Source of the DNA: Bryobacterales bacterium | Lineage (GTDB): Bacteria > Acidobacteriota > Terriglobia > Bryobacterales > Bryobacteraceae | Direction of reading: 5' to 3' | Assembly: GCA_003164035.1 (NCBI GenBank) | Contig: PLRS01000114.1 | Location: forward strand, 1 to 64,000 | Length of the DNA stretch: 64,000 bases | In this document: positions 61,569 through 64,000 of the stretch, in pieces | Layout of the letters: each line of letters opens with the position of its first letter | Numbering within the stretch: position 1 is the stretch's first letter | The notes under the pieces: model-generated | The model's input: only the letters and a program-made list of their open reading frames with translations | What the model was told of the DNA's origin: nothing | Databases searched by the model: none | Program-made: the position numbers and the translations under genes

Positions 61569-64000
61569 CTAGCTACCAAACGACCCGAGAGGATCGAATT
61601 CGCGCTGAACGAACTGCGCGGTGAAGGCGATGAAACGCATTCGCGCCTGAAATTGAATCGTCGGATCGCTTGTCCCGGTGATCTGAAAAGACCCCAGGAA
61701 GCCGGCCAGATTCTCCACCGCGGCCCAATCTTCGAACGTCTGAAACCTCAGCAGGGCCGTGCCCGTTTCCTTGTCGCCGCCGGGTTGTTGCTGGTAGACG
61801 TGGCAATAGAGCGTCGTGTAGTCGGTGAGCAGGTCGCCCACGTCTTTCTCCATGTATTTCACTCCTTCGAAGCGGAAACGGTTGCCGCCGGCGAGGAATT
61901 CGATATGGTAATTCATCTCGGCTTCGCCCGTGGCCAGGTTCACTTTCAGGTAATGAAACCGGCTGTTCGCCGAGTCGATCGGGAAAGTGGCCGGTCCCTG
62001 ACCCTGGAACTGTCCGAATGAGATGGTTCCGCCGATCTGTGCCTCATGCTCATAGCCGTCGACGAACTCGTTGACGTCCCGAATCGTCATGGTGGCTTCG
62101 AAGCTCGAGGTCACCGCGCCGGGCGGGTTGCCGCTGGCTGGAATTCGCTGCGCGATGGTAAGGTCCCCGGCGCGGCCGGGAGCGGGAGTGCCTTCTCCCG
62201 GGAAATACCAGCCGACCATCTGCTCCTTGAAAGTCATGCCGACGCCATCCGGCAATTGTGTGTCGAGAAACGGGCGCAATAGCGTGTTAGTGGGCAGTTG
62301 CTTCCCGGCGATTCGCGTCAGCATGTAGTAGAAGCCGAATTGCCCGCCGGCTTCGGTGTGAAAGAGGCCGAACGAGGAGTTAGCCACCAGCTCGGCGGTG
62401 GCGCCCGGCAGCGTGGCGATGTACTTGCCGACCATGAAATCCGCGGTCACTTTGCGAATCTCGTCGTGAAACGGGGTGAAGTCGTTCAACTGGAAATGGT
62501 CTTTCAGAAAGCTCGGGACGATCAATCCCTCGATGAGACCGATAAGTTGATAGCGCGCCTCGAACCGCCCATCCGGCAAGTTACTGAACTGCAGATAGGC
62601 AATTCCGCTTGCATGATTCGCGTTGGAAATGACATCCATGCGCCAAACGCCGTTCAGATCGGCGGCGTCGGGCGCCGTACCGGTGGCGTACAGCGCGTCA
62701 TGATCGTCATCGGTCATCTGGCCAAAGCCGTAGAGCCGGGACATGGGAAAAGTCAGAACGCGCGCGCCGTGCGGATACTTACCCAGGTACACGCGCCCGA
62801 TCAACAAGTCCTGATTGACGATCTTCAGGATATCGTAAAAGCCCTGCCAGGGCGGATCCAGATAGCGAAGAAGAACGTAGTTGCCCGGCTCCAGAGTGCC
62901 GTCGCTGTGTCCCACTTCCACGGTCACTTCTTCCAGGCTGTTGCGCGCCTGGATGTGCCCATCGGTGTCGCTGGTAACACCGGTGTGTTGTCCATTCGGC
63001 TGCTTTTGAAATTGCTTCTTGAAGCCCGTGAAAATGGCCGAAGACATGGCGTTCAGCACGTTTCCCCGCGGGAAGAAGCCCTTCCAGTAGCGGTCGTTGT
63101 AAATGGTCTCGTTAGCGATGTCGATTGTCGGATTGCCGCCCTGGTTGACAATGGTATCGATCCCCATGGTGGGACAGCGGCGGAACAGAACTTCGAGTTC
63201 GCCTTCGTTATAGCCGATGGCGTCGAGCGCGCTCAGGCCCGCCATGCTGACCGGTTTCGCCGGTTCGGGATAGGCCGCGCCCTGGAGCTGCTGAATCTTG
63301 CGCTCGACAAAGCGCTCGGTCAGCGCCGAGATGGTCAGAAAAGGATTGACGCCGAGCGCGCTCGGAATGATGGACCCATCGGTGACGTAGAGTCCCTGGT
63401 GTACGCTGCCGTCGCCGGCGAACACGCGCCCGTAGACGTCGACCGCGCCTTCCAGGTTATCGTCGCCCATCGGGCATCCGCCCAAAGGATGGGCTGTAAT
63501 CAAATGCCGCAGCTTGAAAAAGCTCCAGGTGGGATTGGAGATGAAGCTGGCGCTGAGCGCGCGCGCGTTGCGGCGCAGTTCTTCGTTCATTCGCGTGAAG
63601 ATCTGCTGCTGGCCGGCCTGGTCCCAGGAAATCTGGATGCGGCCATCGGGCTCAATGAGGGGTTTGTCGAACAGGATGAGGCCGCGGGCATTGTCCTGGC
63701 CCATCACCAAATAAAGCATGGTATGGTTCAACGCGCCGTTCGGATCGTGCTCGCGGCCGGCGGGATCGAGGTCGCGCAGCAGGCGCGCGCGTTGGTCGGC
63801 CTCGTTTCCGGTGACCGTATCCTGGCCCTGAATCGCGGCGAAAACCGCCTTGGCGGCGGCAACCGAGGCGCTCGGGAAGGAAAAGTCTTCGATTGCCATG
63901 CGCTTCGATTCGGACAGCGTACCGTTGTAGCGAACCAGCCCGACAATGTTCGGCCCCGGCGATGGCGAATCGCCCGCCGCCGGTTTTTGCTCCGCGTTAT
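61569..64000 (-). CDS. GMC/cholesterol-oxidase-like flavoprotein, C-terminal part (partial)
   Basis: The frame is open to the window edge, so the N-terminal FAD-binding part is missing. Visible residues [12 protein letters not shown] and [11 protein letters not shown] lead into the GMC C-terminal signature: [55 protein letters not shown]. That part ends near residue 215 after the internal ATG at 63899. About 560 further residues form an extra C-terminal region with no recognised domain, rich in beta and aromatic residues. Such a long tail is unusual for this family. It may oxidise a sterol or other alcohol. Confidence 0.8.

Follow-up and report, generated by a model that had tools for sequence, protein, structure and literature searches.

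A GMC-type flavoprotein of a Bryobacterales bacterium with two predicted C-terminal barrel modules that recur with ester hydrolases in related systems

The window, that is, the whole stretch of 64,000 nucleotides analysed here, specifies at its end a GMC-type flavoprotein with a conserved tail of about 569 residues (556–1124) after the core. This tail divides into two modules, A and B, which are predicted to be beta-barrels, and module B recurs in relatives together with ester hydrolases. With about even confidence, the protein is read as an intracellular GMC Fe-S flavin dehydrogenase for hydrophobic alcohols, in which the barrels bind or present the substrate. The window constitutes the first 64 kb of contig C77 (101 kb; 8.0-Mb genome), which runs on beyond it, and its open reading frame 61569..63998 (minus strand, 809 aa, 5' end open) is the C-terminal part of the oxidoreductase. 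An earlier note on this DNA had described a GMC protein with about 560 extra C-terminal residues and had asked for the rest of the gene. Extension past the window edge provided it: the complete coding sequence lies at 61569..64943 on the minus strand of the contig (L002:9570-12944), specifies 1124 amino acids, and places 569 of them after the core (Table 1).

Table 1. Features of the GMC-A-B gene and of the gene downstream, in window coordinates
Feature	Position	Strand	Remarks
GMC core, C-terminal part	63279..64000	(-)	residues about 316-555 of 1124; holds His485 and Asn533
His485 (AHPLGGC)	about 63489-63491	(-)	GMC His/Asn pair
Asn533 (GVNPF)	about 63345-63347	(-)	GMC His/Asn pair
Remaining core with C189/C192/C195/C199	beyond the window, contig C77 up to 64943	(-)	
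Module A	62274..63239	(-)	tail residues about 14-335; lipocalin-like (predicted)
Module B	61572..62273	(-)	tail residues 336-569; orphan antiparallel beta-barrel and C-terminal helix (predicted)
Stop codon of the GMC-A-B gene	61569..61571	(-)	
DUF2235 / T6SS Tle1-like alpha/beta-hydrolase	60375..61400	(-)	341 aa, 168 bp downstream of the GMC gene

The protein belongs to the GMC family: Pfam places GMC_oxred_N at residues 75–280 and GMC_oxred_C at 472–541, PF00732 and PF05199 scoring 60.7 and 51.5 bits against curated cut-offs of 23 and 24.6. It begins directly with the FAD motif (GxGxxG, present as GSGYGG near the N-terminus), with no signal peptide apparent by eye, and possesses the His/Asn pair as H485 and N533. 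The closest solved structures to the core are cholesterol oxidases (PDB sequence search, E 1.7e-26), with which the His and Asn stretches align. Matches to NCBIfam models over the whole protein were all below their cut-offs and within the core, the cholesterol oxidase model NF058674 reaching 176 bits against a cut-off of 850. GMC cholesterol oxidases (PDB 1b4v, 4u2l) share the GMC fold by sequence (E about 2e-26), but the aligned stretch is without the ferredoxin-like cysteine motif of the window protein, and their chains of about 500 residues carry no extra modules. The earlier description of the enzyme as cholesterol-oxidase-like is thus right as to its nearest solved relatives, while as an enzyme name it is too specific because of the low score and the cysteine motif.

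This motif, at residues 189–199, reads C-x2-C-x2-C-x3-C (C189/C192/C195/C199). In a phmmer alignment, C189, C195 and C199 fall on Cys212, Cys218 and Cys222 in the FAD-glucose dehydrogenase of Burkholderia cepacia (numbering counted by hand), reported as its 3Fe-4S ligands in PMC6719666; the protein thereby has three cysteines aligned with the cluster ligands, as given there, of FAD-GDH-type dehydrogenases. The short cysteine fragment gave an E-value of 0.05 with the FAD-glucose dehydrogenase chains, the whole core one of 3.9e-6 with the same chains, and the fragment also matched a 2[4Fe-4S] ferredoxin (E 0.019). The catalytic subunit of the Burkholderia enzyme (6a2u, 8grj) has the C-x5-C-x3-C cysteines in common with the window protein and, according to the same source (PMC6719666), likewise a His/Asn pair; the window protein differs in its fourth cysteine, which turns the pattern into C-x2-C-x2-C-x3-C, and in having the barrels. 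Among four neighbouring genes run through Pfam, no gamma or multihaem subunit was detected. Since three of the four motif cysteines align with 3Fe-4S ligands, the core may act as a dehydrogenase and not as an oxidase that forms peroxide.

All four cysteines are kept in 32/32 tailed-group cores that include the region (in two of these, L020 and L084, the core and the tail occupy separate frames; L018, which would be the 33rd, is truncated and not counted) and in 10/10 cores of the GMC-B-hydrolase proteins described below. Of the five other associated GMC proteins, four show a three-cysteine form, C-x5-C-x3-C, and the fifth, L095 (= L026), has the four-cysteine form. The control set consisted of the best PF05199 match per genome, from the 30 genomes, out of 31, in which there was one (L120–L149); the four-cysteine motif was present in 16 of these 30 other GMC frames of relatives and neither form in 14. 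The motif was accordingly rejected as a mark of tailed enzymes: it marks a wide GMC subgroup and is not peculiar to the window protein. The same count suggests that Fe-S GMC dehydrogenases are common in Acidobacteriota, and it cautions that a considerable share of their GMC proteins (16/30) may be Fe-S dehydrogenases and not oxidases. In the 16 Acidobacteriota control proteins the motif mostly reads CHYCG or CHFCG.

That the tail has no recognised family, as the earlier note held, was borne out by the complete protein: Pfam at its cut-off assigned nothing beyond GMC_oxred_C in the 1124 residues, NCBIfam assigned no family to the tail, and in the PDB sequence search the best-matching stretches end at residue 554. 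The tail is conserved and under purifying selection, and is not a chance extension. Eighteen tails (that of the window and those of 17 loci) align over their length, the other 17 being 43–86% identical to the window tail, and among named loci the tails nearest to it come from Bryobacterales, Solibacter and other Acidobacteriota. In two close relatives dN/dS was about 0.11–0.12 for the tail and 0.075–0.09 for the core. A tail match at E up to 0.001 was found in 29 of 151 genomes, the own genome included; 27 were strong, among them G404 with a gene interrupted by stops, and two lay at about 5e-4. Phylum-wide, 11/396 genomes were positive: the long tail was present in three, counting the own genome, module A alone in three and module B alone in five. 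Close relatives of the core in L114 and L115 (54–55% identity) are tail-less, which shows that such a core can occur without the barrels.

The predicted model of the whole tail (mean pLDDT 77.7, pTM 0.54) divides into the two modules. These showed no relation when compared with each other, and PDB sequence searches with whole-tail and module-A profiles revealed no credible relative. Tail residues 9–183 of the model, the first half of module A, match 4mve (Z 12.3, rmsd 3.2, 137 aligned, 18% identity), the next fold match in this region being at Z 7.7. This structure (Tcur_1030) is presumably a member of the GXWXG/DUF4334 family. As modelled, module A resembles a lipocalin and its first half a remote relative of that family; the likeness lies in the fold of the first half, whereas module A falls below every Pfam cut-off and is about twice as long. 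DUF4334 was the commonest weak Pfam match among the module-A rows (4/25, best E 0.0059) and GXWXG matched weakly in 2/25 (E 0.14), while the window's own module A had no Pfam match to either. As a plain Pfam assignment of module A, DUF4334 was not reached, all matches being below the cut-off. On the objection foreseen in the earlier note, that the tail might belong to a common known domain, no family was assigned and the predicted structure gave the likeness of half of module A to 4mve. Searches for PF14232 found no match in 21 genomes and three plasmid records, but were also negative in the control genomes and are hence uninformative.

Invariant polar residues of module A in 25 rows are D41, W53, K140, R169, D180 and R263 (A2 numbering). 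Standalone module A proteins of about 335 aa adjoin GMC genes in L094 and L095; those in L093 and L116 have no GMC gene within the fetched stretch. A plasmid search with standalone module A produced two chance matches only (E 3). At least 12 of the 32 distinct tailed proteins, some of which end at contig edges, carry an extra C-terminal copy of module A, which brings them to about 1440–1480 aa.

Module B alone is predicted to be an antiparallel barrel with a helix (pLDDT 83.9, pTM 0.82). Near its start it contains F-x-E-x-M-x-G, and in 26 rows E8, H67 and K130 are invariant. Its best fold matches were to annelid haemoglobin linker barrels, with Z 8.7 alone and 9.5 in the whole-tail model, values little above the level reached by models without a clear match; avidin reached Z 7–7.7, and Foldseek gave nothing at E up to 0.001. 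On these predictions it is an orphan beta-barrel without a clear fold relative. Catalase rows occurred in the fold lists at Z 6–6.8 and about 5–5.5, among other unrelated barrels, but a catalase origin was rejected: comparison by hhalign with sequence profiles of 11 catalase-family members from relatives gave a probability of 0.1–0.2%.

The association of module B with esterases is real in sister architectures. The module lies between GMC and alpha/beta-hydrolase domains in proteins of about 1120–1215 aa, and in five genomes it forms the C-terminal part of patatin-like proteins that adjoin GMC genes. The GMC-B-alpha/beta-hydrolase fusions (Azospirillum WP_149201188.1, Rhizobium WP_063474201.1 and Bryobacterales paralogues) share with the window protein a related sister core, the same module B and the same four cysteines; unlike it, they have no module A and end in the hydrolase domain. 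At least 80% of the Azospirillum fusion protein was matched in seven of the 18 plasmid records with any match, namely Azospirillum itself, two Rhizobium, Leptospira, Persicobacter, Bernardetia and Variovorax (in two pieces). The same parts are also specified by separate genes. B, A, GMC and hydrolase are four neighbouring genes at one locus (L095), core and A-B tail are two adjacent genes in a Dadabacteria locus (L020), and Arthrobacter has three adjacent genes for GMC-B, a protein that resembles the Azospirillum metallophosphoesterase but itself has no Pfam match, and a hydrolase-like protein. A tree of 44 cores split off, each with 100/99 support, the tailed group (29 rows), in which A and B are fixed, the GMC-B-hydrolase proteins (10) and GMC proteins alone (4); the very long row of L035 is unsure in its place, and the tail-less L114 and L115 are outside the tree. 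Under a midpoint root the tailed (GMC-A-B) and GMC-B-hydrolase cores are sister groups. No description of these architectures was found among the literature matches listed (titles and abstract openings, with subscription journals mostly outside).

The earlier note had paired the oxidoreductase with a DUF2235 lipase-like gene following on the same strand, and such a gene is indeed present; as both genes are on the minus strand, it is found at lower coordinates. Its product matches PF09994 (now Tle1-like) with E 3.4e-67 and has a GFSRG motif. A tblastn search with this gene (E up to 1e-3) detected it in none of 32 other fetched loci with the tail, 23 of which are testable because their sequence continues for at least 1.4 kb past the tail. 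With 0/23 testable loci the proposed pair fails, and DUF2235 was rejected as a conserved partner. By Pfam model the family occurs in 4/26 searched tail-bearing genomes, the own genome included; in the other three it is on a different contig, and in two of these (G456, G447) less than 0.3 kb of contig follows the GMC gene. Of the lipid- or sterol-ester-degrading unit that the note had envisaged, the DUF2235 pairing is therefore lost, the link to ester hydrolases survives in the sister architectures, and the lipid idea is kept in a weakened form.

Other neighbours were counted in 31 tailed-group loci (the own locus among them, and loci present in more than one collection counted once after manual sorting), and because many loci are cut by contig ends these counts are lower bounds. 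In the own locus, a gene for a 451-aa FAD_binding_4/ALO-like flavoprotein precedes the GMC gene by 15 bp on the same strand, followed 40 bp further upstream by that for a 765-aa protein (contig C77 66355–68652, outside the window; L002:14356-16653 minus); a calcineurin-like phosphoesterase gene is divergent on the upstream side. ALO-like genes are found in 13/31 tailed loci; in 12 of these the gene immediately precedes the GMC gene, and in the remaining one it lies downstream. The 765-aa protein, which has no Pfam or NCBIfam match, has family members in 8/31, and the phosphoesterase family is present in 6/31 tailed loci, in 5/8 Acidobacteriota GMC-B-hydrolase loci and also in L096. Clustering revealed RoxA-like dihaem cytochrome c genes in 4/8 GMC-B-hydrolase loci and 2/31 tailed loci (the PF21419 Pfam check being run on three of these six), and a family search added a fifth GMC-B-hydrolase locus, G469:C8, giving 5/8; the loci are L085, L086, L089, L090, L092, L082 and L076. 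In L082 about 12 bp separate the end of the cytochrome gene from the GMC-A-B gene that follows it on the same strand. A set of 32 genomes, selected on account of these GMC genes, gave 21 PF21419 matches of at least 43 bits; seven of them are in these loci, where a rough hand estimate expects far less than one by chance. The own genome has a good RoxA-like gene on another contig, and the 14 kb fetched around it contain none of the searched components.

For the window protein, the core would oxidise a hydroxyl group of a hydrophobic molecule such as a sterol, terpenoid or other lipid alcohol, and electrons would leave FAD via an Fe-S cluster to an external carrier, not to O2. The barrels A and B would bind the substrate or bring it to the active site and would do the same service for esterases in the sister systems, while the ester-splitting step would be performed in trans or be absent in this branch. 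The presence of barrel modules on the flavoenzyme here and on fat-splitting enzymes in relatives suggests a possible shared handling of greasy substrates. Export is the rule for RoxA-like cytochromes, while the GMC protein shows no signal peptide by eye, so that a direct hand-over of electrons is not obvious, and the occurrence of a RoxA-like gene near only 2/31 tailed loci also counts against it. A wider scheme is put forward as tentative and rather doubtful. In it, A and B would be an undescribed lipid-handling barrel pair, which bacteria join in varying combinations to an Fe-S flavin dehydrogenase and to ester hydrolases (alpha/beta-hydrolase or patatin), in some cases beside a RoxA-like dihaem cytochrome. 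Together these would make up a modular hydrolyse-then-oxidise system for hydrophobic esters, in which the flavoenzyme would receive the freed alcohol from the barrels and a cytochrome would take up the electrons. Were the barrels to carry hydrophobic substrate from esterase to dehydrogenase, they would represent a new kind of substrate-handling module in soil-bacterial lipid or sterol breakdown. Domain swapping links A and B, two modules without an assigned Pfam or NCBIfam model, to a single enzyme chemistry, and this makes their function testable.

It is improbable that the enzyme is instead a true GMC cholesterol or sterol oxidase making H2O2, with the tail as a lipid or membrane anchor and the DUF2235 esterase as its partner on sterol esters. 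The closest solved relatives, the aligned His and Asn stretches and the adjacent DUF2235 gene agree with such an enzyme, but the score of 176 bits against 850, the aligned cholesterol oxidase stretch without cysteines at the motif and the count of 0/23 for the neighbour all disagree. The barrels could also be structural or assembly modules, not substrate binders, serving oligomerisation or the docking of the hydrolase, the ALO-like flavoprotein and other partners into a single complex. It would fit that GMC, hydrolase and patatin proteins all carry such modules and that these also have genes of their own, as would the extra copy of A in at least 12/32 tailed proteins, since extra copies are frequent in scaffolds; the lipocalin-type look of the first half of module A points the other way, though a common fold shows no function, and we hold this reading unlikely too. 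Some small beta-barrels act as isomerases or cyclases, and an enzymatic A or B would make the protein a bifunctional alcohol dehydrogenase and isomerase. The invariant polar residues of A (25 rows) and B (26 rows) could be catalytic but may be structural. The cyclase barrels AbyU and PloI4 appear among the weak fold matches of B, though at background level (Z 5–5.4), and neither Pfam nor PDB sequence searches matched a catalytic family, so that this last reading is very unlikely.

Several minor observations were made in the window and at the tailed loci. At L004:4783-6340, on the same contig as L066, the ALO-like gene extends over two overlapping frames, which points to a frameshift or an assembly error. 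A second family of neighbours, of 256–321 aa, is present in 4/31 tailed loci (L066, L068, L073, L075), and the one member that was run had no Pfam match. Downstream of the GMC-A-B gene in L096 (L096:11626-15288, the start also at L022:3263-4732) are genes for a protein with a DNA/RNA non-specific endonuclease domain, which also has a trypsin-like part below its cut-off, and then for an animal-type haem peroxidase. Within the window, a single open reading frame at 58404–59780 on the plus strand combines, as judged by eye, a rubrerythrin-like N-terminal part with a VIT1-like membrane part.
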